Shown here: positions 1,398-37,725 of the stretch, piece after piece
How positions within the stretch are numbered: the stretch's first letter is position 1
Layout of the letters: every line of letters begins with the position of its first letter
Assembly: GCF_004346685.1 (NCBI RefSeq)
Contig: NZ_SMCO01000003.1
Coordinates: forward strand, 62,001-126,000
DNA length: 64,000 nt
Direction: 5' to 3'
Source of the DNA: Sulfurirhabdus autotrophica
GTDB lineage: Bacteria; Pseudomonadota; Gammaproteobacteria; Burkholderiales; SMCO01
Position numbers and translations under genes: made by a program
Notes under the pieces: model-generated
What the model saw: the letters and a program-made list of their open reading frames with translations, nothing else
What the model was told of the DNA's origin: nothing
Databases searched by the model: none

Positions 1398-3158
1398 TTA
1401 TTTAATAACCTGTATGGAACTTGTTGCCGCATTACCGCTGGTATCCACAGCCTTAACACTGATTACATGGGTACCGGAACTCACTCTGCGCATGTTCCAA
1501 TTATAGGAAAGAGTGCCTCCAGTGACAGTCGTTGCGAGCAATCCATCTATGTAAAGGCTGGTATTGGCAACAGCAACATTATCTTTTGCTTCGGCTAATA
1601 TCAAAACCTTCGTCGCAATTTTGCTGCCATTTATCGGACTGGAAATAGTCACAGTAGGAGGTGTAATATCAACAGCGTTTTTAACATTCACCATTACAAC
1701 GGGTGAAGCGCTGTAATTACCTGCTGCGTCATAAGCATAAGCCACCAATTGCGCCTCACCATCCGATACCTTTGTTGAATCCCATGAGAATGCATATGGC
1801 GAAGCGTTATCACTAGCAACCAAAACACCATTAGCTAGCAGATCAACATGCGTCACCCCCACATTATCCGATGCAGAGGCATCAACAGAAACCCACCCTG
1901 ATACGGTCGCATTATTTCCTGGAGAACCGATTGCTACCACTGGCGCGCTCAAGTCTCTCGACACTGATAGAGCAGCAGCCTGCACCGCAGCAAAAGTATT
2001 CACCCTGCCATATCCATAGTTCTGGTCCCACCCGGCAGTGCCAAGATCAACCGCAGTGGTTTTCAGCAGGTTTTCCACATCCACAGGGCTAAGTTGCGGG
2101 TTAGCTGCCAACATCAACGTAACGGTACCCGCTGTGGCAGGACTGGAGAATGAAGTACCTGAAACGGCACTATATCCGCCACCTCGGGTTGTAGTCCAGA
2201 TACCTGCACCCGGTGCGGAAACATCCACAAATGGGCCATAGGTAGACCAACTGGTTTTCACATCATTACTATCCGTTGCAGAAACGGAAATCATTGTGTC
2301 GTCAGCAAGAGAGCTGTCCAGAGCACCACTATTACCCGCTGAAACAACTGTCACCCCGCCCTTGTTTTTCATATATTGAGCGGCATTCTGGACCGTAGCG
2401 TAACCTGACACGGCATAGCTGATATTGGCAACCCGCGCCCCATGATCAGCAGCCCAAATCAGACCGTTGGCTATTGTACTGATGCTGGCCATGCCATCTG
2501 TGCCACTAATGCGTACTGGCATTATCTTAGCCTGCCAGGCAAAAGAACTCACACCAATCGCATTATCACTGGCAGCACCTACTACCCCGGCTACCATCGT
2601 TCCGTGCCCATAGACGTCAGCTGTATCTGCATTATTGTCATACATGTTCCAGCCAGGAACGAGCTGTCCTGCCAAATCAGGATGGGTCGCATCAACACCG
2701 GTATCCAATATGGCTACTGTAATTCCGTTTCCCAGACTGATGTCCCACGCACTGCCTGCCTGCATTTTATTCAAGTGCCACTCATTTGGCGTATAGGGGT
2801 CATTTGACGTTTTTTCTGCATGAAGAATGTAATCCAGCTCAGCGAATTTGATATTCTTATGTTTTCTCAAACTGTTTAGCACAGCCTTTTCTGACGCATT
2901 ACCGGGAAGTTCAACAATTTGAACATTGACCCCTTTAATTTTTCTCAATGCGTGACCGCCGTGTGGCTTCAGCACCTTTTCAAATTCAGCGGCATCAAGG
3001 CCTGCACGGGGTTGAACAAGAATTCTGCCCTTTACCCAGTCGGCACCAGGTTCTATAGCAGACACAGGATTGGCAGCCAGGCAGAGACCTGCTCCCGCTA
3101 GCAACGTGAACAACAAATTATGGGGGAAAACGTGTAGATACTGCTTGGACTGGCTCAT
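1398..3158 (-). CDS. Secreted S8 (subtilisin-like) serine peptidase with C-terminal Ig-like domains
   Basis: A 586-residue subtilase preproprotein. A signal peptide occupies about residues 1-34 (hydrophobic FTLLAGAGLCLAA, then NPVSA) and an I9-like propeptide about 40-110. The S8 catalytic domain has Asp152 (AILDTGVD), His185 (YGHGTMVAG), oxyanion Asn276 (SAGNSG) and Ser336 (SGTSFSSPATAG). The last 190 residues hold two bacterial Ig-like repeats (each with a DxxGN motif), likely for surface or substrate attachment. The ATG at 3158 has GAGG 8 nt away; a TTG two codons upstream abuts the ribosome site and is unlikely. A c-di-GMP-I riboswitch lies in the leader, so expression should follow c-di-GMP. 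The protein should act outside the cytoplasm; its substrate is unknown. Confidence 0.93.
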   Translation of the reverse strand: MSQSKQYLHVFPHNLLFTLLAGAGLCLAANPVSAIEPGADWVKGRILVQPRAGLDAAEFEKVLKPHGGHALRKIKGVNVQIVELPGNASEKAVLNSLRKHKNIKFAELDYILHAEKTSNDPYTPNEWHLNKMQAGSAWDISLGNGITVAILDTGVDATHPDLAGQLVPGWNMYDNNADTADVYGHGTMVAGVVGAASDNAIGVSSFAWQAKIMPVRISGTDGMASISTIANGLIWAADHGARVANISYAVSGYATVQNAAQYMKNKGGVTVVSAGNSGALDSSLADDTMISVSATDSNDVKTSWSTYGPFVDVSAPGAGIWTTTRGGGYSAVSGTSFSSPATAGTVTLMLAANPQLSPVDVENLLKTTAVDLGTAGWDQNYGYGRVNTFAAVQAAALSVSRDLSAPVVAIGSPGNNATVSGWVSVDASASDNVGVTHVDLLANGVLVASDNASPYAFSWDSTKVSDGEAQLVAYAYDAAGNYSASPVVMVNVKNAVDITPPTVTISSPINGSKIATKVLILAEAKDNVAVANTSLYIDGLLATTVTGGTLSYNWNMRRVSSGTHVISVKAVDTSGNAATSSIQVIK

Positions 3159-3304
3159 TTGCAACTCCTCATTAAATCAGGTTCCATCTTGAAACCTGTG
3201 ACATGGGGAATGCTTAGCCAATAGAACGCTCAACAGCCAGCAACGTATACGCAGTGGCTGAAACATCTAAATTGAGCGGAACAGTGCAAATAACTTACTG
3301 TACA

Positions 3305-3400
3305 CACCTGGCCTGGCAGTCCCGCTGTCGTGGGGGAAAACCCCGTTAGACCGGTAACTTTGCGCCCCACCCTTTCGGGTGGTTTGCCTTTTTCAGGACA
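3305..3400 (-). promoter_or_regulatory. Cyclic di-GMP-I (GEMM) riboswitch aptamer
   Basis: Read on the minus strand, the leader of the subtilase gene holds the GEMM-I core in order. AGGCAAACC is followed by a CCACCC-GAAA-GGGTGG hairpin with the GNRA tetraloop. Next come GCGCAAAG, then CCGGTCTAAC, a GGGG-TTTT-CCCC hairpin, and AGCGGGACTGCC. CCTG and CAGG can close the outer stem. The aptamer ends about 147 nt before the ATG. The remaining leader has two hairpins (CAGCCA/TGGCTG, and CAGGTT/AACCTG just before the ribosome site) but no clear terminator, so translational control is plausible. The family identity rests on conserved positions recognised by eye. Confidence 0.88.
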
Positions 3401-3614: not shown

Positions 3615-3638
3615 AAAAAGCCGCTATTGCGGCTTTTT
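3615..3638 (-). terminator. Terminator after PEP-CTERM gene copy 1
   Basis: A perfect 10-bp stem (AAAAAGCCGC / GCGGCTTTTT) with loop TATT lies 24 nt past the stop of the leftward gene at 3663. Its symmetry means it could work in both directions. Confidence 0.85.
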
Positions 3639-3662: not shown

Positions 3663-4334
3663 TTACTGAACTGCTTTTCTTCTTGCCAACCCTACCAAAC
3701 CAATCAGGCCAGATCCTAGCAGCCACGCAGCAGCAGGGACGGGTACCAAATTAGGTGGAAGAGTGGTTGTGCTACCAGCAAAATATGCGCTGGTTACCAT
3801 TCCATTAGCATCACTCAGATTAGAGGTAAACCCAGCCACATGGGCAGCGAAAAAAGGATTAGTAGAACCAAACCAGCTTCCAGCTGTACCAGTTGAAGGA
3901 TTTGCATAACTACTAATACTATCCCCAGCAATATTGATGGAGAAGGTCAATGGATCCAGACGAGAATTACCAGTTCCTGTTTCTGCAACTGAAAATGAGC
4001 CAAAACCATCCAGGTTACCTGACCCAACAGACCAGGAAGTGTTTAGATTGTAAATATTTGAACTGGAAAGCGCCATTGTTGGATTGAAGCCAAACGCCTG
4101 GAGACCAAAATTGGTTCCAATACCAATCGGAGAAGTACTAAAAGCAGAAGTAGTTTCCACCTTAAAATCAATATCTCCAGCATTAGTCGTTGAATCAGAG
4201 ACGGTAACTTTTACATAACCAATTCCATCCAACAATGCATTGGACTGGTCGAGGTAGTAAGTAACAGAAGCAGCTTGAGCATTCATTCCCCAAGCCAACC
4301 CTAAGCAAACCACAAGTTTCGCTGTACGTTTCAT
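3663..4334 (-). CDS. PEP-CTERM/VPLPA-type sorting-signal protein, copy 1
   Basis: A 223-residue secreted protein with a signal peptide (MKRTAKLVVCLGLAWGMNA, cleaved after AQA). The Ser/Thr/Asn-rich body has no recognised domain. The C-terminal sorting signal is VPVPAAAWLLGSGLIGL followed by VGLARRKAVQ: motif, one transmembrane helix, Arg-rich tail. Such tails are recognised by exosortases, which anchor or release the protein at the cell surface or matrix. The ends are nearly identical to the neighbour at 4494-5186, while the middle is unrelated or strongly diverged. The ATG has GGAGAG upstream. A sigma-54-like element with a changed -12 box lies about 95 bp upstream. Confidence 0.88.
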   Translation of the reverse strand: MKRTAKLVVCLGLAWGMNAQAASVTYYLDQSNALLDGIGYVKVTVSDSTTNAGDIDFKVETTSAFSTSPIGIGTNFGLQAFGFNPTMALSSSNIYNLNTSWSVGSGNLDGFGSFSVAETGTGNSRLDPLTFSINIAGDSISSYANPSTGTAGSWFGSTNPFFAAHVAGFTSNLSDANGMVTSAYFAGSTTTLPPNLVPVPAAAWLLGSGLIGLVGLARRKAVQ

Positions 4335-4493: not shown

Positions 4494-5186
4494 TTACTGA
4501 ATGACTCTTCTTCTAGCCAAGCCCACCAAACCAATCAAGCCAGAACCAAGCAACCAAGCAGCTGCTGGTACAGGAACCACTTGTGGAGGAAGCCCTGGGT
4601 TATTAACGAAGCTAGCACTGTTGCCATCCTGAAACCCAGTTACGTGAATACCAAGACGTAGATTACCGTTACTTAGATCTAACAGAACATCATTAAGTGT
4701 TTTGCCACTTTTTAATGCATAGTCTAAAGTCAGCCATTCAGAAGCTGCGTTCACACCATGACTCGTTGTTCCGCCATTACCAGCATTTGCTCCAGACGTA
4801 AAAGCAGTGGACGTCGAAGCATTAAAAGGTGGGGTGATATTATTGGCACCAGGCAAATTTGCTGGATTAGCATCTAACGAAAACACTACATTAGTCTGAT
4901 TACCAACGTCGCTATCAGTGATCGTTGGTAAAGGAGAGCCACTTAGAGAAGAAGTACCGGCATCGAAATAAACATCGGTAATGGATGATTTCGATCCTAC
5001 TTTATTATAAAAAGTAAAGCTTACGCCCTTAGTTGTGCCTATTACATCAACTGTAAGCTGAGACTGTCCAATACCACAATCGGTAGAAACGCTAGGCGTA
5101 ATGCAGAAAAAACTCAGCGTAGATGCTTGAGCGTTCATTCCCCAAGCTAACCCTAAACATACCAGAAGTTTCGCAATACGTTTCAT
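4494..5186 (-). CDS. PEP-CTERM/VPLPA-type sorting-signal protein, copy 2
   Basis: A 230-residue secreted protein. Its signal peptide (MKRIAKLLVCLGLAWGMNA) and sorting tail (VPVPAAAWLLGSGLIGL, then VGLARRRVIQ) almost match copy 1, but the roughly 170-residue body differs. It has two Cys near the N-terminus of the mature chain (FFCITP and TDCGIG) that could form a disulfide, and no recognised enzyme domain. The likely role is an exosortase-processed surface or matrix protein. Upstream are a sigma-54-type promoter and two copies of the 17-bp element shared with the other PEP-CTERM loci, so it is probably co-regulated with them. Confidence 0.88.
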   Translation of the reverse strand: MKRIAKLLVCLGLAWGMNAQASTLSFFCITPSVSTDCGIGQSQLTVDVIGTTKGVSFTFYNKVGSKSSITDVYFDAGTSSLSGSPLPTITDSDVGNQTNVVFSLDANPANLPGANNITPPFNASTSTAFTSGANAGNGGTTSHGVNAASEWLTLDYALKSGKTLNDVLLDLSNGNLRLGIHVTGFQDGNSASFVNNPGLPPQVVPVPAAAWLLGSGLIGLVGLARRRVIQ

Positions 5187-7322: not shown

Positions 7323-8174
7323 ATGTATACACCAGAACTCAGCATGGGTTGGCAACGCGACCTTCCCGATTTTCGTGACCACACTAAGCAAGCAGATGAT
7401 GTAGCAAAAATCCTGTCAAAATCCAAACGCTTGCAAGCCGCCATAAAAAAAATGCCGGCATCTATCGATTTACGGCAGTGGTGTTCACCTATTGAAGATC
7501 AAGGCAACATTGGTTCTTGCACTGCAAATGCCGGAGTAGGCTTGCTGGAGTATTTTGAGCGCCGCGCATTTGGCAAACATCTGGATGGTTCCCGCCTGTT
7601 TCTTTATAAAGCTACGCGCAACCTGCTTGGCTGGACGGGAGATCAGGGCGCTCATTTGCGCGCCACCATGAAGGCAATGGTGTTGTTTGGTGTCCCGCCA
7701 GAAACACATTGGCCCTATAAAGTGACCAAATATGATGAGGAACCACCAGCATTTTGCTATGCCTTCGCCCAAAACTACAAAGCGCTGAATTATTACCGGT
7801 TAGATCCTCCCGGTACGTCGACAAGCCAACTGCTTACAGCGATCAAAAACAATCTCGCTGCCAACTTACCCTGCATGTTTGGGTTTACTGTATATAGCTC
7901 GATTCCGCCAAGCGGTGATGGCAAAGGTGAGATTCCTTATCCACTCAAAGGTGAATCAGTGCTGGGCGGCCATGCGATTGTTGCAGTGGGATTTAACGAC
8001 ACCAAAGTGATAGGTAAAAATAAGGGCGCATTATTGATCCGCAACTCCTGGGGCACAAGCTGGGGAATGCAGGGATATGGCTGGCTACCTTATGCTTATG
8101 TGGAAAGTGGGTTGGCAGTGGACTTCTGGTCGCTGGTTAAAGCTGATTATATCGATACTGATTTATTCAAATAA
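7323..8174 (+). CDS. C1 (papain-like) family cysteine peptidase
   Basis: A 283-residue protein with a papain-type active site. The oxyanion Gln and nucleophile Cys66 are in EDQGNIGSCTANAG, His217 in LGGHAIVAVGF and Asn241 in IRNSWGTSWGMQGYGW. No signal peptide or propeptide is evident, as in bacterial C1A-like proteins related to the bleomycin-hydrolase/cathepsin fold, so a cytoplasmic location is likely. The substrate is unknown. GGAGG lies 5 nt before the ATG. The 3' end overlaps the convergent hydrolase gene by 8 nt. Confidence 0.9.
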   Translation: MYTPELSMGWQRDLPDFRDHTKQADDVAKILSKSKRLQAAIKKMPASIDLRQWCSPIEDQGNIGSCTANAGVGLLEYFERRAFGKHLDGSRLFLYKATRNLLGWTGDQGAHLRATMKAMVLFGVPPETHWPYKVTKYDEEPPAFCYAFAQNYKALNYYRLDPPGTSTSQLLTAIKNNLAANLPCMFGFTVYSSIPPSGDGKGEIPYPLKGESVLGGHAIVAVGFNDTKVIGKNKGALLIRNSWGTSWGMQGYGWLPYAYVESGLAVDFWSLVKADYIDTDLFK

Positions 8175-14594: not shown

Positions 14595-17500
14595 TCAGGC
14601 TGCCAATGAACTCAATGCAAGCGGCTTTCCAATTATGTAGCCCTGTGCATAATCTACGCCAATTTCACGTAGCATATCAAGAATGCTGTCATTTTCCACA
14701 TATTCGGCGATAATTCCCTTGCCCATGAAATGACCGATTTCAGTAATGGATTTAACCACTGCATAGTCATAAGGATTGGAGTCCATATTCTTGACAAATG
14801 CGCCGTCAATTTTCAGATAATCAACCGGCAGATTTTTCAAGTATGCATAGGATGACAAACCACTGCCAAAATCATCCAAGGCAAATGTACAGCCAGTTTT
14901 CTTCACCTCCAGAATAAACTCTGATGCGTTGGATAGGTTTGCGATCCCTGCGGTTTCAGTGACTTCGAAGCAGACTTTTTCCATAGGAACTTTCAGGTTC
15001 TTTGATTGCTGAATGATGAAATCAATAAATCCTTCTTCATTCAAAGATGCACCGGATAAATTAATTGCAAAGCCACCCACTTCTTCCAATTTGTGGCGAT
15101 GCAGACCCATCCACTTAAATACATTCAAAATAACCCAGCGATCAACGGCTACCATCCGTCGGAAACTTTCTGCAGCAAAAATCAGATCTGCAGGTGAAAT
15201 GAGGTTTCCTTGTTCATCCGGTACGCCAAGCAATATTTCGGCATGGTGCAGCAAGGTATTTTTTCTGGAAATTCGGGCAATTGGCTGATAACGAAGCACC
15301 AATGAATCATTGTCCAGAGCCTCATCAATTTTTGTGACCCATTTGATGGCTTGCTTGTGTCGCGCCATGCCCGCATCATCCTGGCTATAAACCTGGATGT
15401 AATTGGTGCCTTTCAGCTTTGCGCTGCGACAACTCTCTTCGGCTGCCTGTAAAAGCGTGGGCACACTTTCGCTTTCCGGGTCTATTGCTACGAGACCTGC
15501 ACTAAATGATATTGCGAGACTTTTTTCATCACTGACAAACCGATAATTTTGTAAAGCCGTCTTTTGTCGACCGGTAATTTCCAGCGCCTCGATAACCGTG
15601 CAATTTTCAAACAACATGCCAAATTCGTCGCCACCTATACGGGCAACCATACCGCGCTCACCCAGCCCATCTTTCAGCAGCTTCGTCACCTCAACCAGCA
15701 ATCGATCTCCACCTGCGTAACCAAAGGTATTATTCACAACACTAAACTGATCCAGATCGATATAACAGATCGCATGATGTTGATTCAGTTGCTGAGAACT
15801 TGACAGCGCCTGACCAAGGAACCTTTCAAATTCACGTCGATTAATCAAACCTGTTAGCTGGTCATGGGTAGATTCATGTAACAACTGGCGATGCATTTTT
15901 TGCAGCATGGCTGTTTGTGCGCGGTCAATTAGTGGTTCTCCAGCATCATCCAGCACAACTGACGTACCATCGCGCAATTGCTGGGCCAATTCAGTCTGAG
16001 TTAACGTCAGCTCTTTTAACCCTTTCACATTCACAAAAACAAAATTTTCGAAATACTTGGAAATCCAGGCTAATCGACGACGTTGATGTTCAGTGTCCTT
16101 ATCAAACAGAATCCAGTCACCCACCTTAAGTCGCCGAACCTGCTTTCTCCACTCTAACAAGCCATCTTCATTAGATGTAGGCGCCTCCGGTTTTTCCTGT
16201 TTGTTGCCAGTTGAAGCTGCCACCTTCCTGGCTATACGTTGATCCTCTTCACATGCAGCATAAACGTCCTCAAGATTTTCCTTGTAGGCTTTGTCCTGCA
16301 GCCTGATAAGCGAATTCAGATCTTTCAGCATTTTCTCAAATAGCTGAGGAGTAACTTCATCAGCAGATGTCACTTCAGCAATGAGATGATTTATTCTTTT
16401 TCTGACGGCGTTATGCCCCATATCGCCGTTTTCCTCACCATACAATTCCAACTGGGCAAGGCTATTGATCACCTGGCGTGCAAGGTGAGATTTATCTGAA
16501 AAAAGCGAGTCATCCTGAAGCGCCATTTTAACCATCGGGATCGATAATTCCTGAAGCCATGGTCTTACATTGTTTGCGACCAGTTTATCTTCCAGAACCG
16601 AATCAAACAAACTCCCAGCAATATCCAGAATGCGCCCTTCTCGCTCCGGAAGGTGTTTTTGCTCATCCTCTGGCTTCCCGTGTGAAAGCACAGACATCAA
16701 CTGCGATTTAACGTCTTGCTGAAAACTCCCAGCAAGCGGTTTCAATTTTTCAGAAAATTTCACGCGAGACAATGCTGAAAGCAGTTCATCCGGTGTATAA
16801 AACTGTTGCATTTGCGCCGCGTTCGCAGGACCAGCACCTCCAGCCGACTGCCCTGGCCCAGTTTGAGCTACCCCAGCTTGACCTGGCATCCCAGCAGGGC
16901 GATAACCTCCTTGCTGTGCAGCATTTTGTTGCAAATTCCCCAAATATTGCACCAGACTATACCAATCCTGTGGCGCCGGAACATTGTCACTTTGGCGTCG
17001 ACCAGCTACAAAATTTGCATCTCCTCCCTGGCCTCCACCCCCTTGACTGCCGCTGCCTCCTCCCTGACCACCACCTTCAGACTGCTTGCCCGAAACATTG
17101 CCAGCATTTCCTGCTGGAGAAGATTGTTGCGAGGAAGACTTCTCTGCTTCTTTTTCAACTTTAGGGGTTGGACGTGGCACTTCTTCACTGGAGGGTTTGA
17201 TTTTATAAAGGTGCTTTGTATCCAGCGTGACACCTTTATCGTTCAGATACTTATTGATTTTGTCGTACATTTCACCTAATGCAGTGGAAAGTACTTCTTT
17301 ATAAATCGCATAGCTAACTTGCAGTGCTTTACGATCCAGGGTGACCACTTTCAGTGTATCTTGAAAGCCTTGTCCAAAAGAAGCCGGCGCAAAAGGATTG
17401 GTTTCTCTGTCGACTACTTCATTAACCAGCACACCCAGTCGGTGATTAAGATCATTCAATTGATCCTGAAACTCTGCTTCCAGCTTTCTGGCCATATCCG

Positions 17501-18245
17501 AATAAGCCAGCCATTCTTCAAACTCATCCTCCTCCACAAGCGAAAGGGTTAATGACGAAAGTTCCTGTTCAGATTGATTTGACGACTTTTTTGAGTGGTT
17601 AACAAACGGATCAAGCTGTTCCTGCATCTGTTCTTCAAACTCACGCTTCAGAATATTTTCCTGCTTATTGAATACACTCAAAGCATCATAATAAGCATTT
17701 TTTTCTGTAATACTCTGTACTTCACCTGCAATGGTAAAGAGTCGATTCGTTACTTTTTCAAAGAAAGAGTTGATAACGGGCTGCACACACTTTTCAGCAA
17801 ATTTTTTGCACTCGCGCAGCAAGGCTTGCCCATCTACCTTCGGTGAATCAGCTACAGTTGATTTTTTCTCAGCGGGTGGAATGTCGGACTGAGGGGGCTG
17901 GCTCGGCCTGAATTTTTTGGCAAAACCATGCAAGAGATGCAGCGCTTCCAGATCAGGCTCAACAAAAGCGATGCCCGCTCCCGATTGATCTGTACGTACC
18001 ACACGTCCTTGAAAAGTAATAATTTTTTCTCTGGGCAACGCAGGGACACTACAACGAATCTCTATAAAATTCCCATTAACAAGCTGGAATTTTTGAGGTT
18101 GGTCAGCATTACTGACATTTTCGTAAGATACGAAAACGCCACCAAGACAAAAATCCTGGATTTCGACTGTGCACTTACCCATACCGGGTGCACTGCACAC
18201 AGCATCAAGGCTCACAACAAAACGAGTTAAAGCACGTTTTTCCAT
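14595..18245 (-). CDS. PilZ-DUF1631-GGDEF-EAL cyclic-di-GMP protein
   Basis: A 1216-residue protein. The N-terminal PilZ domain (about 1-115) has the RxxxR motif (Arg4, Arg8) and DFCLGG at 31-36, where the usual Ser is Cys. A long helical DUF1631-type region follows, broken by a Gly/Gln-rich linker near 380-470. GGDEF occupies about 800-955, with the intact motif at 871-875 but no upstream RxxD inhibitory site. The EAL domain starts near 965. Its signature is EIL at 1003 and the other key segments remain (INLSGASLN, FEVTETAG, LDDFGSGLSSYAYL, LKIDG, AEYVEND, YAQGYIIGKPL), so phosphodiesterase activity is plausible. It probably senses and turns over c-di-GMP. No membrane helices are seen. Confidence 0.92.
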   Translation of the reverse strand: MEKRALTRFVVSLDAVCSAPGMGKCTVEIQDFCLGGVFVSYENVSNADQPQKFQLVNGNFIEIRCSVPALPREKIITFQGRVVRTDQSGAGIAFVEPDLEALHLLHGFAKKFRPSQPPQSDIPPAEKKSTVADSPKVDGQALLRECKKFAEKCVQPVINSFFEKVTNRLFTIAGEVQSITEKNAYYDALSVFNKQENILKREFEEQMQEQLDPFVNHSKKSSNQSEQELSSLTLSLVEEDEFEEWLAYSDMARKLEAEFQDQLNDLNHRLGVLVNEVVDRETNPFAPASFGQGFQDTLKVVTLDRKALQVSYAIYKEVLSTALGEMYDKINKYLNDKGVTLDTKHLYKIKPSSEEVPRPTPKVEKEAEKSSSQQSSPAGNAGNVSGKQSEGGGQGGGSGSQGGGGQGGDANFVAGRRQSDNVPAPQDWYSLVQYLGNLQQNAAQQGGYRPAGMPGQAGVAQTGPGQSAGGAGPANAAQMQQFYTPDELLSALSRVKFSEKLKPLAGSFQQDVKSQLMSVLSHGKPEDEQKHLPEREGRILDIAGSLFDSVLEDKLVANNVRPWLQELSIPMVKMALQDDSLFSDKSHLARQVINSLAQLELYGEENGDMGHNAVRKRINHLIAEVTSADEVTPQLFEKMLKDLNSLIRLQDKAYKENLEDVYAACEEDQRIARKVAASTGNKQEKPEAPTSNEDGLLEWRKQVRRLKVGDWILFDKDTEHQRRRLAWISKYFENFVFVNVKGLKELTLTQTELAQQLRDGTSVVLDDAGEPLIDRAQTAMLQKMHRQLLHESTHDQLTGLINRREFERFLGQALSSSQQLNQHHAICYIDLDQFSVVNNTFGYAGGDRLLVEVTKLLKDGLGERGMVARIGGDEFGMLFENCTVIEALEITGRQKTALQNYRFVSDEKSLAISFSAGLVAIDPESESVPTLLQAAEESCRSAKLKGTNYIQVYSQDDAGMARHKQAIKWVTKIDEALDNDSLVLRYQPIARISRKNTLLHHAEILLGVPDEQGNLISPADLIFAAESFRRMVAVDRWVILNVFKWMGLHRHKLEEVGGFAINLSGASLNEEGFIDFIIQQSKNLKVPMEKVCFEVTETAGIANLSNASEFILEVKKTGCTFALDDFGSGLSSYAYLKNLPVDYLKIDGAFVKNMDSNPYDYAVVKSITEIGHFMGKGIIAEYVENDSILDMLREIGVDYAQGYIIGKPLALSSLAA

Positions 18246-27523: not shown

Positions 27524-28114
27524 TTATATTTCCCTTTTCCGCCGTGAAATAACAAGCGAAGCGATACCCAATCCCAATAACGACAAAGTAGCTGGCTCTG
27601 GCACGTTGCCTGATGTTGGTACCACAGCAAAAAACCCTCTGATCTCGCCTCCGGCATAAGCTGCTGTATGAATGTTAAAGTAAGCGCTTCCGTTATTAAG
27701 CCCGCTTAAAAGCGCCATTTCTGCACTAGAAACAGCCCCCCCACTGGATGTCACAAAGGAGGGATTAAAGCTTGAAGCGAGCGACAAATCCAACAAATGA
27801 TTGTAAACACCGCTGGTGACACCGGAAGGAAAACCCGTAAAAGTCGGCACAGTCGTTGCCACGCCAACATTACCCGGCGCGGGTATACAACAATGGATGT
27901 GAGCCGCTGAGACAGTACCAATAAGCCCAGCAAAACTGACATCTACCAATAGTGTATGTAATGTAGCATCATATTCCAAGGTAGCCAATCCAGTACCTGG
28001 AGAGGGCGTATTAGAAGCGGCACCTGTCAGTGTCGCTTTGTAAATAATGGGCATTGCTTGCGCACTACTGACGCCAATCAATGTCACCATAACCAACATT
28101 AACCAATTTTTCAT
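27524..28114 (-). CDS. CHRD-domain protein with PEP-CTERM sorting signal
   Basis: 196 residues: signal peptide (MKNWLMLVMVTLIGVSSAQA), a CHRD domain (YKATLTGAASNTPSPGTG, with SAAHIHCCIPAPGNVG and NIHTAAYAGGEIRGFF) and the sorting tail VPEPATLSLLGLGIASLV with RRKREI. CHRD domains occur in secreted or matrix proteins. The ATG at 28114 has AGGGAG upstream. It is the last of seven leftward genes whose first member is also PEP-CTERM, 94 nt after the GNAT gene. Confidence 0.9.
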   Translation of the reverse strand: MKNWLMLVMVTLIGVSSAQAMPIIYKATLTGAASNTPSPGTGLATLEYDATLHTLLVDVSFAGLIGTVSAAHIHCCIPAPGNVGVATTVPTFTGFPSGVTSGVYNHLLDLSLASSFNPSFVTSSGGAVSSAEMALLSGLNNGSAYFNIHTAAYAGGEIRGFFAVVPTSGNVPEPATLSLLGLGIASLVISRRKREI

Positions 28115-28208
28115 TTGAAACTCCCTGAAAAAATTTAACATTTGCAGCAAAAGTATTTACCCACAGCGAGAAAAAATCGCCTGAAAATCATTGGCAATAT
28201 ACGATAAT

Positions 28209-30759: not shown

Positions 30760-31437
30760 TCAACATTCTTTGGCCCGACGTACTCCCAGTGCGGCCAGAC
30801 CAAGCCCGAGTAAAGCCAGAGTGCCAGGCTCCGGAACACTTGGTGGCGGAGGAGGAGGTGGTGGTGGAGGGGGCGGTGGTTGTTGCGTGACTTGAAAACT
30901 CAGGGCAATCTGGCCATGATTATTAACTGTTGAACCCAATATACCCAGATTACCCAGGTTGTTTAGCGTGAGTGTGGTCGCAGTAAAAGCGAGATCTGCA
31001 TTACTCAGACCTATCGCATTGGTCAGTGAAAGTGTCACCCCATTCAGAACATCTGGAGCAAAACTGAAACCAGTGAATTCCAGGCGTGCACCTGGGAAAA
31101 GATTAAAACCAGCGTTTGAAAAACCACCTGGCATTGTGGCCCCACCCCCGCTGAGTTGAATCACAATATTGAAAGCGCCAATATCTATATAGTCAGCACT
31201 GAACAATATCGCATCCAGCGCCAGATTCTTGGTATTATCGCTCCCCAATATCTCTGTGCCAGCCCCAACTGTAACAGTGTCACTACTTGTAAATGGGGTA
31301 TTATCCAAGTAAGTAGCCGTTACTGTCTGGCCAATCAGTGAAGCATAGGTAAATTGCGGCAGAGAGAATGACAGCGCGAAGAGCACAAAAAATGCTGCCA
31401 GTTTTCGTAAAAGATGCGCGAAGAAAAATGATTTCAT
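30760..31437 (-). CDS. PEP-CTERM protein with polyproline linker
   Basis: 225 residues: signal peptide (AAFFVLFALSFSLPQFTYA), a beta-rich body of about 150 residues, a run of 13 Pro, and the sorting tail VPEPGTLALLGLGLAALGVRR. The Pro run is an extended stalk placing the domain away from the membrane anchor. It is first of seven leftward genes. A sigma-54-type promoter and three copies of the 17-bp element lie upstream. ATG at 31437 is preferred over 31452 because the signal peptide follows it directly. Confidence 0.88.
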   Translation of the reverse strand: MKSFFFAHLLRKLAAFFVLFALSFSLPQFTYASLIGQTVTATYLDNTPFTSSDTVTVGAGTEILGSDNTKNLALDAILFSADYIDIGAFNIVIQLSGGGATMPGGFSNAGFNLFPGARLEFTGFSFAPDVLNGVTLSLTNAIGLSNADLAFTATTLTLNNLGNLGILGSTVNNHGQIALSFQVTQQPPPPPPPPPPPPPSVPEPGTLALLGLGLAALGVRRAKEC

Positions 31438-31528
31438 ACCTGCAGCCCTCAAATTTTTACTGCTTTTATTGAGTTTTTTGCTTTTATAGGCGACATACTA
31501 AAAGCATGAAACTGACAAATACTTCTTT

Positions 31529-36725: not shown

Positions 36726-37032
36726 CTAAGCTTTCACCGCAAAATGCTTGTCCAGCTAAACCAAGCTAGCATCACACGGCATAACTAAAAAAATATGTGC
36801 AGGGTCTTACGTGTAATTAGGGGGAGAAAAGAGAATGGCTTATCTGCGTGCAACGTTCGTTTGTGCTTTCGTTGGTGTATCCAACGCCCTGATTGTCCTC
36901 GTGAGGCGTGAAAACATGCCGCAAACGTCACGGCTTTTCCTGCAAAAAATGCATTAATACTAGACCTGGCCCCAAGTTTTTTTCGGATTGTTGCCAGGTA
37001 CCTCAACACAATCACTTTTTAGGAAGATAAAG
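36726..37032 (+). other. Long, probably structured 5' leader
   Basis: It contains a GGCGTG-AAAA-CATGCC hairpin (36905-36920) nested in GTGA/TCAC, with the bulge GCAAACG. It also has an ACCTGGC/GCCAGGT stem (36964-36970 with 36993-36999) just before the ribosome site AGGAAG. The order of conserved bases does not match GEMM-I, and no known riboswitch family was recognised. Confidence 0.45.
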
Positions 37033-37725
37033 ATGTTAAAGCCGTCATTTGTGTCCAGTCTTTGCGCCGGTCTTGTCAGCGTTCTAAGCGCGAGCGTGGC
37101 TTTAGCCACGCCAATGGTTTTTAGTTTAGCTGGTACCACCACGGATCATAAAGGTTTTTTTGGGCCAGTGGACGGCTCAATAACTCTCACGTATTCCATC
37201 TCATACGATACCTCGGATATCAACGCCGATCGGTCCTCTTGGGCTGGGTTCTGGGGGCCAGTCGGGCTTAGCCTCAACGTGCGTTCTGACAGCGGCAATC
37301 AATGGCAAGTGGTGAGCAATCTGGACGAAAACATTCTAATGATTGTGTTCAATAGCCCGTTCTGGAGATCCAGGGGGTCGAATTTGTTGGCGGAAGGAGT
37401 GTCTGTTTCTCCAACGCCGATCGGCTATATTCCTCGTGGTGATGCGATTTACGACTTTAGTCTATTTCTTAACGAGAATACCGGTCTTACATTCCTAGAT
37501 AACATGCTTCCGCTCCCGGTCGATCGAATCAATGCATATATGGGAACAGCCAGTATTGTCGTGCATGATGCCCAAGGGCATGCGTTGGATGGGGTGTTTT
37601 TCAACCTGCCGAATTGGTCAGCAACGCAAATTTCTCTGCCGGAGCCTGGTGGCGCGTGGCTCATTGGTGTCGGTCTTTTCGCCATGGGGGTCATTTACGG
37701 CAATCCCCGCAAGACGAAGCCGTGA
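37033..37725 (+). CDS. PEP-CTERM sorting-signal protein
   Basis: 230 residues: signal peptide (LCAGLVSVLSASVALA-TP), a beta-rich body of unknown fold with many Ser/Trp/Asn, and a sorting tail LPEPGGAWLIGVGLFAMGVI followed by a basic NPRKTKP end. ATG at 37033 has AGGAAG 7 nt upstream. It is isolated in a gene-poor stretch and controlled by its own sigma-54-type promoter. Confidence 0.86.
   Translation: MLKPSFVSSLCAGLVSVLSASVALATPMVFSLAGTTTDHKGFFGPVDGSITLTYSISYDTSDINADRSSWAGFWGPVGLSLNVRSDSGNQWQVVSNLDENILMIVFNSPFWRSRGSNLLAEGVSVSPTPIGYIPRGDAIYDFSLFLNENTGLTFLDNMLPLPVDRINAYMGTASIVVHDAQGHALDGVFFNLPNWSATQISLPEPGGAWLIGVGLFAMGVIYGNPRKTKP

Follow-up and report, generated by a model that had tools for sequence, protein, structure and literature searches.

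In the 64,000-nucleotide stretch of DNA analysed here as a whole (the window), the element at 3312-3398 on the minus strand is almost certainly a c-di-GMP-I (GEMM-I) aptamer, as judged by covariance search and comparative covariation, and its conserved placement indicates that it very probably controls the subtilase gene behind it. Our best explanation of the whole, in which the riboswitch acts on the translation of a subtilase that is probably exported, is fairly probable. The subtilase clade appears to be a conserved target of c-di-GMP-I riboswitches that is unreported in the literature searched; the riboswitch class itself is well known. Searches for c-di-GMP riboswitches together with subtilase, protease, exosortase or PEP-CTERM gave nothing on the pairing among the matches listed, with subscription papers covered in part, and a table elsewhere might hold it.

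Aptamer and subtilase gene in the window

The features discussed below are as follows.

1398..3158, minus strand: subtilase, probably exported, with propeptide, S8 domain and two Big_7 Ig-like domains (ATG at 3158; domain matches)
3165..3170, minus strand: Shine-Dalgarno GAGGAG (sequence; duplex with the 16S tail, -8.9 kcal/mol)
3178..3198, minus strand: short strong hairpin between anti-Shine-Dalgarno and Shine-Dalgarno (folds)
3199..3221, minus strand: possible pairing partner of the aptamer 3' strand, containing the anti-Shine-Dalgarno (folded ensembles)
3204..3210, minus strand: predicted anti-Shine-Dalgarno (Shine-Dalgarno partners in folded ensembles)
3309..3330, minus strand: aptamer 3' strand (P3/P1 side plus 3 nt), proposed anti-Shine-Dalgarno competitor (duplex with 3199-3221)
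3312..3398, minus strand: c-di-GMP-I (GEMM-I) aptamer (RF01051, 83.9 bits, full length)
3615..3638, minus strand: terminator-like hairpin closing the VPLPA-CTERM gene upstream (10 pairs and a T tail)
3663..4334, minus strand: VPLPA-CTERM surface protein gene, upstream neighbour (TIGR03370, 31.6 bits; cut-off 25.35)
4494..5186, minus strand: second VPLPA-CTERM surface protein gene (TIGR03370, 31.2 bits; cut-off 25.35)

Using cmscan on the whole window, RF01051 (c-di-GMP-I) was matched at 3312-3398 of the minus strand with 83.9 bits (E 4.7e-15), which exceeds the gathering cut-off of 35 bits, and the alignment spans positions 1-87 of the 87 in the model with 0 non-standard pairs marked. It is the sole gathering-threshold match in the window, one weaker overlapping match of the same clan being omitted by cmscan. 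The P2 and P3 helices and the GNRA tetraloop of the consensus are present (the loop is GAAA), and a P1 of 4 bp (CCUG/CAGG), a helix not included in the Rfam model, is possible. The original prediction had placed a well preserved GEMM-I core at 3305-3400 and had named an RF01051 covariance search as one of its checks; the full-length, significant match bears out both the core and the coordinates and leaves the claim unrefuted, and the strand, which had been left unstated, is minus.

The aptamer lies 153 nt before the ATG at 3158 on the same strand. The ORF list puts the subtilase start at the in-frame TTG 3164, and ATG 3158 is favoured because of its spacing to the Shine-Dalgarno. As just four RF01051 matches occur in the 3.86 Mb of the whole genome, siting at this distance 5' of the subtilase is unlikely to be due to chance, and the same placement is seen again in relatives. 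The ORF matches Peptidase_S8 (PF00082) at 7.9e-48, and it also has a Fervidolysin_NPro-like propeptide and two Ig-like stretches of the Big_7 type; it contains the S8 motifs DTG, HGT and GTS..P, and the nearest solved chain is thermitase (1thm, 7.1e-50). The S8 peptidase with Ig-like domains claimed earlier is therefore present, and its export is likely from the propeptide and an N-terminus that is hydrophobic by eye.

The hairpin at 3638-3615, the strongest nearby on the minus strand, sits upstream of the aptamer and separates the VPLPA-CTERM gene from the subtilase unit; a simple promoter scan listed no minus-strand site between this hairpin and the aptamer. The two VPLPA-CTERM proteins are 36% identical to each other. 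Elsewhere in the window there are a papain-family (C1) peptidase with no obvious signal peptide by eye (7323-8174, plus strand), a 1216-residue ORF (14595-18245, minus strand) with a GGDEF match at about 15402-15869, and three more proteins whose tails look PEP-CTERM-like by pattern, at 27524-28150 (minus), 30760-31452 (minus) and 36988-37725 (plus).

Conservation of the aptamer in relatives

Among the 39 distinct relatives scanned, 30 carry a c-di-GMP-I (RF01051) or c-di-GMP-I-GGC (RF03167) aptamer upstream of the subtilase on the same strand: 16 of 20 from genome contigs and 15 of 20 from the order, where L064 and L034 appear to be one contig (equal length and identity) and were counted once. 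The genome-contig scan comprised 29 loci, of which 20 were sent to Rfam and L052, L053 and L056-L062, whose S8 or Ig-like matches are short or remote, were left out; in the order set L081, at a contig edge, was not scanned, hence 20 of 21 rows. The subtilase itself is sparse, being found (E <= 1e-60) in 21 of 399 genomes of the order, with 21 rows besides the window's own, and in its own genome alone among 398 in a phylum-wide draw.

Of the 16 aptamers in genome-contig relatives, 10 score highest with RF03167; the window aptamer does so with RF01051. The distance from aptamer to start ranges from 43 to 419 nt across the leaders. The bearers belong to Betaproteobacteria, and also to Desulfosoma (Thermodesulfobacteriota) and Competibacteraceae. 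The nine relatives without the aptamer are four from one genus (g29; L067, L069, L071 and L077), two Verrucomicrobia (L049 and L051), one of Chromatiaceae (L045), a gammaproteobacterium (L046) and the distant match L083, which sits in a frame of 2736 residues. A model (R2) made from the aptamers of this family on the Rfam structure plus P1 found nothing at these nine, and across 19 loci including L052, L053, L056-L062 and L081 it found nothing convincing, with one match (L056) at E 0.26. An RNAalifold consensus (R1) was tried as aptamer model as well; it lost most of P3, and R2 was used instead.

The protein tree places all 31 bearers, that of the window among them, inside one 37-row clade (support 100/99). 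The aptamer label requires 4 changes on this tree, compared with 8.2 for shuffled labels, and none of 500 shuffles gets by with so few. A simple reading of this tree would be one early gain of the aptamer with later losses. The clade holds six members lacking it, four of them from one genus, which indicates that the aptamer is dispensable there; in genus g29 the switch seems to have been lost from the subtilase gene.

The genomes of the four g29 loci with an aptamer-less subtilase have 62 to 121 PEP-CTERM matches, and in G028, G253 and G283 of this genus the aptamer is present elsewhere in the genome. Genome G353 contains adjoining subtilase copies (L076 and L084) with one aptamer each.

Leader folding and the direction of the switch

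We consider a translational OFF switch of the Vc2 kind fairly probable, with a direction predicted from modelled folds. In such a switch, the aptamer and the Shine-Dalgarno would compete for a single pyrimidine-rich segment. At low c-di-GMP, the G-rich 3' strand of the aptamer would pair with the UUCCCC segment and leave the Shine-Dalgarno free, so that the protease is made; when c-di-GMP is present, the aptamer would retain its own 3' strand, the UUCCCC segment would mask the Shine-Dalgarno and translation would fall.

In the window, the best duplex between 3309-3330 and 3199-3221 has -24.1 kcal/mol and covers 6 of 6 anti-Shine-Dalgarno positions, ranking at 0.09 against shuffled leaders and at 0.04 against shuffled strands. 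In the ligand-free ensemble the aptamer 3' strand pairs with 3199-3221 at a probability near 0.5, and UUCCCCA (3210-3204) within this segment otherwise masks GAGGAG. Averaged over 31 leaders, the unpaired probability of the Shine-Dalgarno in the post-aptamer segment is 0.17, and it is 0.36 once the upstream part has been shuffled (Wilcoxon p 1.7e-7, kinship ignored); for the window it is 0.16 against 0.34 with 11% of 100 shuffles as low, and the masking judged from the window alone is only suggestive.

In 24 of the 30 leaders with a masking segment, the stretch that pairs best with the aptamer 3' strand overlaps the anti-Shine-Dalgarno, against 15.4 expected from shuffled strands (p 2.4e-4), in a test devised after nine leaders had been inspected, eight of them chosen for favouring the idea. 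After dropping four near-copies it is 20 of 26 against 12.2 expected (p 4.2e-4). The competing duplex clearly beats shuffled leaders (rank 0.1 or below) in just 8 of 31 cases, and the skew of the ranks has p 0.010. With the real aptamer sequence the Shine-Dalgarno of the window is unpaired at 0.36, compared with a mean of 0.16 for shuffled ones (0 of 40 as high); over 30 of the 31 leaders, L035 with its 419-nt leader being left out, the real aptamer lifts exposure marginally (0.29 against 0.20, p 0.052).

The same aptamer and gene could also form an ON switch, in which bound c-di-GMP would unmask the Shine-Dalgarno; the subtilase would then be produced by sessile cells at high c-di-GMP, for instance as a maturation enzyme for surface proteins. 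GEMM-I aptamers drive both ON and OFF switches, according to the available text of PMC9262584; the Shine-Dalgarno is masked in most leaders modelled without ligand, and a protease maturing surface proteins would be wanted alongside them. However, the aptamer 3' strand competes for the anti-Shine-Dalgarno, and therefore this strand, when held in the aptamer, should keep the Shine-Dalgarno masked. Of the 31 leaders folded with the aptamer enforced, 8 lose more than 0.1 of exposure and 0 gain that much, a shift to which the enforcing of any remote structure may contribute; in the window the fold models give 0.16 with the aptamer enforced against 0.36 without, at a cost of about 6 kcal/mol and with ligand energy, tertiary contacts and cotranscriptional folding ignored. 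We thus regard the ON direction as unlikely.

Control of transcription, by intrinsic or Rho-dependent termination in the leader, would fit another aptamer of the same genome (L003), which overlaps a strong terminator, and Rho sites are invisible to the sequence methods used. Against it, intrinsic termination was looked for in the window leader and no terminator-like site was found on the minus strand between the aptamer and the subtilase start; a terminator-like hairpin with a T run occurs in 3 of the 31 family leaders, and the window leader is not among these. This explanation appears quite improbable. Translational control, in turn, fits both the lack of a terminator and the predicted masking of the Shine-Dalgarno, and the original prediction, which had described a leader without terminator and a possible action on translation, agrees with these results.

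Like Vc2, the window leader is predicted to mask a ribosome-binding site that lies at a distance from its aptamer; the two differ in the target gene, and the direction in the window is one that we infer. Masking of the ribosome-binding site is, by its title, the subject of Inuzuka 2018, cited in PMC9262584. Vc2 of Vibrio cholerae is described as a translational OFF switch in the accessible part of PMC9262584.

Covariation and ligand specificity of the aptamer family

When the 31 aptamers are aligned to the Rfam structure plus P1, 90.6% of cells are paired and both-side changes occur in 18 of 26 pairs. The covariation score is 0.346 against 0.168 in shuffles; on every one of five measures, none of 500 shuffles comes as high, and slid structures give far lower scores than the true register. 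The weakest of the helices is P1, which has 76.6% of its cells paired across the family and both-side change in 3 of 4 pairs. Because the aligned aptamers share ancestry and were compared with the structure of their own family, this covariation indicates conservation and not binding.

The specificity column, which we take to be Vc2 G20, is G in 31 of 31 rows; by the same presumed Vc2 numbering, A47 (the A after P2) is invariant in all 31 rows and the pocket C is kept in 30 of them, L075 having T. Compared with the RF01051 riboswitches, the window aptamer is alike in its whole structure, standard pairs and specificity G, and it differs in its target, the subtilase clade.

Sensing of another cyclic dinucleotide (3',3'-cGAMP, as in the GEMM-Ib type) was considered, as cGAMP variants have the same fold as c-di-GMP-I and the window carries G at conserved column 40, which is usually A, a change common to 7 of 31 rows (window included). 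We rate it as highly improbable, because the presumed G20 position is G in all rows; the 59 GGDEF matches of the genome may also speak for c-di-GMP. G20 is a selectivity factor and not a hard filter, as stated in the portion of PMC9262584 at hand. A degenerate or decoupled aptamer retained by chance, which its absence from 6 of 37 clade members might suggest, is barely credible given the full-length 83.9-bit match with every pair standard and the covariation of the family aptamers.

Association with exosortase and PEP-CTERM surface proteins

The subtilase tracks the exosortase/PEP-CTERM system, and this association is new here. An exosortase match was found in 20 of the 21 order genomes with the subtilase and in 144 of 378 others (Fisher p 1.2e-7, kinship ignored), with the subtilase and exosortase draws of 399 each treated as the same genomes. 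The 20 include G066, whose subtilase match is the distant L083, and the exception (G168) has PEP-CTERM matches. The genome of the window contains an exosortase and 21 PF07589 matches, 19 of them over the cut-off.

PEP-CTERM tails lie near 11 of 16 aptamer-bearing loci in the first set and 6 of 14 in the second, whereas among the loci that lack the aptamer there are none, in 4 of the first set and 5 of the second. The flanks searched on each side were up to 3 kb in the first set (less at contig ends) and 1.5 kb in the second, without L064, and a custom pattern was applied to the last 40 residues. Tails were dropped by eye at L034, L048, L051, L064, L067 and L084, as was one of two in L055, L076 and L078; the tail at L079 was counted on 10 residues of frame, and a PF07589 match lies at the same place (G062:C13:56912-56977). 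In 13 second-set genomes, 6 loci have a PEP-CTERM neighbour against 0.21 predicted from their own PEP-CTERM density, where the background is PF07589 at E <= 1 and the neighbours come from the custom tail pattern. The neighbours at L037, L038, L040 and L041, from Thauera, Desulfosoma, Competibacteraceae and Nitrotoga, are choice-of-anchor N proteins above the NCBIfam cut-off.

Because of this link, turnover of matrix or adhesins, the example role in the original prediction, becomes more plausible. The substrates that we would name first are exosortase-sorted (PEP-CTERM/VPLPA-CTERM) surface proteins or the matrix holding them, an assignment from genomic context that may be right but that we hold at slightly less than an even chance. 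Such proteases may mature proteins and not shed them; the portion of PMC10599522 consulted cites, by title, a subtilisin-like protease maturing a Geobacter surface cytochrome. A subtilase clade tied to exosortase and PEP-CTERM offers a direct handle on how PEP-CTERM surface proteins come to be released or remodelled, and on the signal behind it.

A predicted ON switch in the same genome and known protease circuits

Locus L003 of the same genome (593-1581, minus strand) has an aptamer at 1500-1581, with RF03167 (c-di-GMP-I-GGC) as best match, which precedes a VPLPA-CTERM gene. The 3' strand of this aptamer doubles as the 5' arm of a 13-bp hairpin with about -23 kcal/mol, behind which stands AUUUUUAUUU, so that aptamer and terminator are mutually exclusive; 2 of 200 shuffles of the 78-nt hairpin stretch fold as well. 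L003 is thus predicted to be a transcriptional ON switch, with the same aptamer/terminator exclusion as the pilM ON switch in the available sections of PMC9262584. Its P2 pairs CC with GG where the consensus has GC with GC, and since the core departs from the consensus, its ligand is less sure.

Opposite signs are therefore predicted by the models within one genome, as the L003 terminator overlaps the aptamer 3' strand and the subtilase leader has none: at high c-di-GMP the surface protein would be ON and the subtilase OFF. This would mirror the PPEP-1 circuit of Clostridioides difficile. PPEP-1 (CD2830) is a secreted protease under a class I c-di-GMP riboswitch, and the surface adhesins that it cleaves are under class II c-di-GMP riboswitches that act the other way, as reported in the accessible text of PMC11477304. 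Both systems have a c-di-GMP-I riboswitch on a protease that is secreted or, here, probably so; they differ in the enzyme (subtilase here, metalloprotease for PPEP-1), in the control (predicted translational here, transcriptional there) and in the surface proteins (PEP-CTERM/VPLPA-CTERM here, peptidoglycan-anchored adhesins there), and the substrate link here is genomic, by neighbourhood and co-occurrence. The case is a candidate for a second, testable system in which c-di-GMP acts inversely on a protease and on surface proteins.

In Methylophaga nitratireducenticrescens GP59, c-di-GMP riboswitches adjoin VPLPA-CTERM and PEP-CTERM genes (PMC12530212, available text), which is like L003 with its riboswitch beside a VPLPA-CTERM gene; unlike the subtilase pairing here, the word "protease" has 0 occurrences in the main text of that report. 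Tentatively, and as a rather unlikely proposition when taken whole, exosortase-bearing Betaproteobacteria and relatives might share an old RNA-wired attach/detach circuit in which riboswitches turn PEP-CTERM/VPLPA-CTERM proteins ON and the subtilase that cuts them OFF. If true, a fall in c-di-GMP would both halt synthesis of the surface proteins and shed them, convergent with PPEP-1.

The other two aptamers listed in this genome precede a DUF1631 gene (L002) and a gene for a secreted-looking protein with weak ankyrin similarity (L004). Aptamers of c-di-GMP-I type stand before DUF1631 (PF07793) genes at L002, L005, L009 and L022, and before genes assigned to DUF1631 by eye from the N-terminal sequence at L013, L015, L020, L021, L023 and L025-L027; DUF1631, to which Pfam gives no function, looks like the commonest aptamer target among the loci read. 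At L030 (genome G115), an EAL-domain gene lies behind the aptamer, the end of which overlaps a weaker terminator-like hairpin (-12.0 kcal/mol), and feedback on c-di-GMP turnover is possible.
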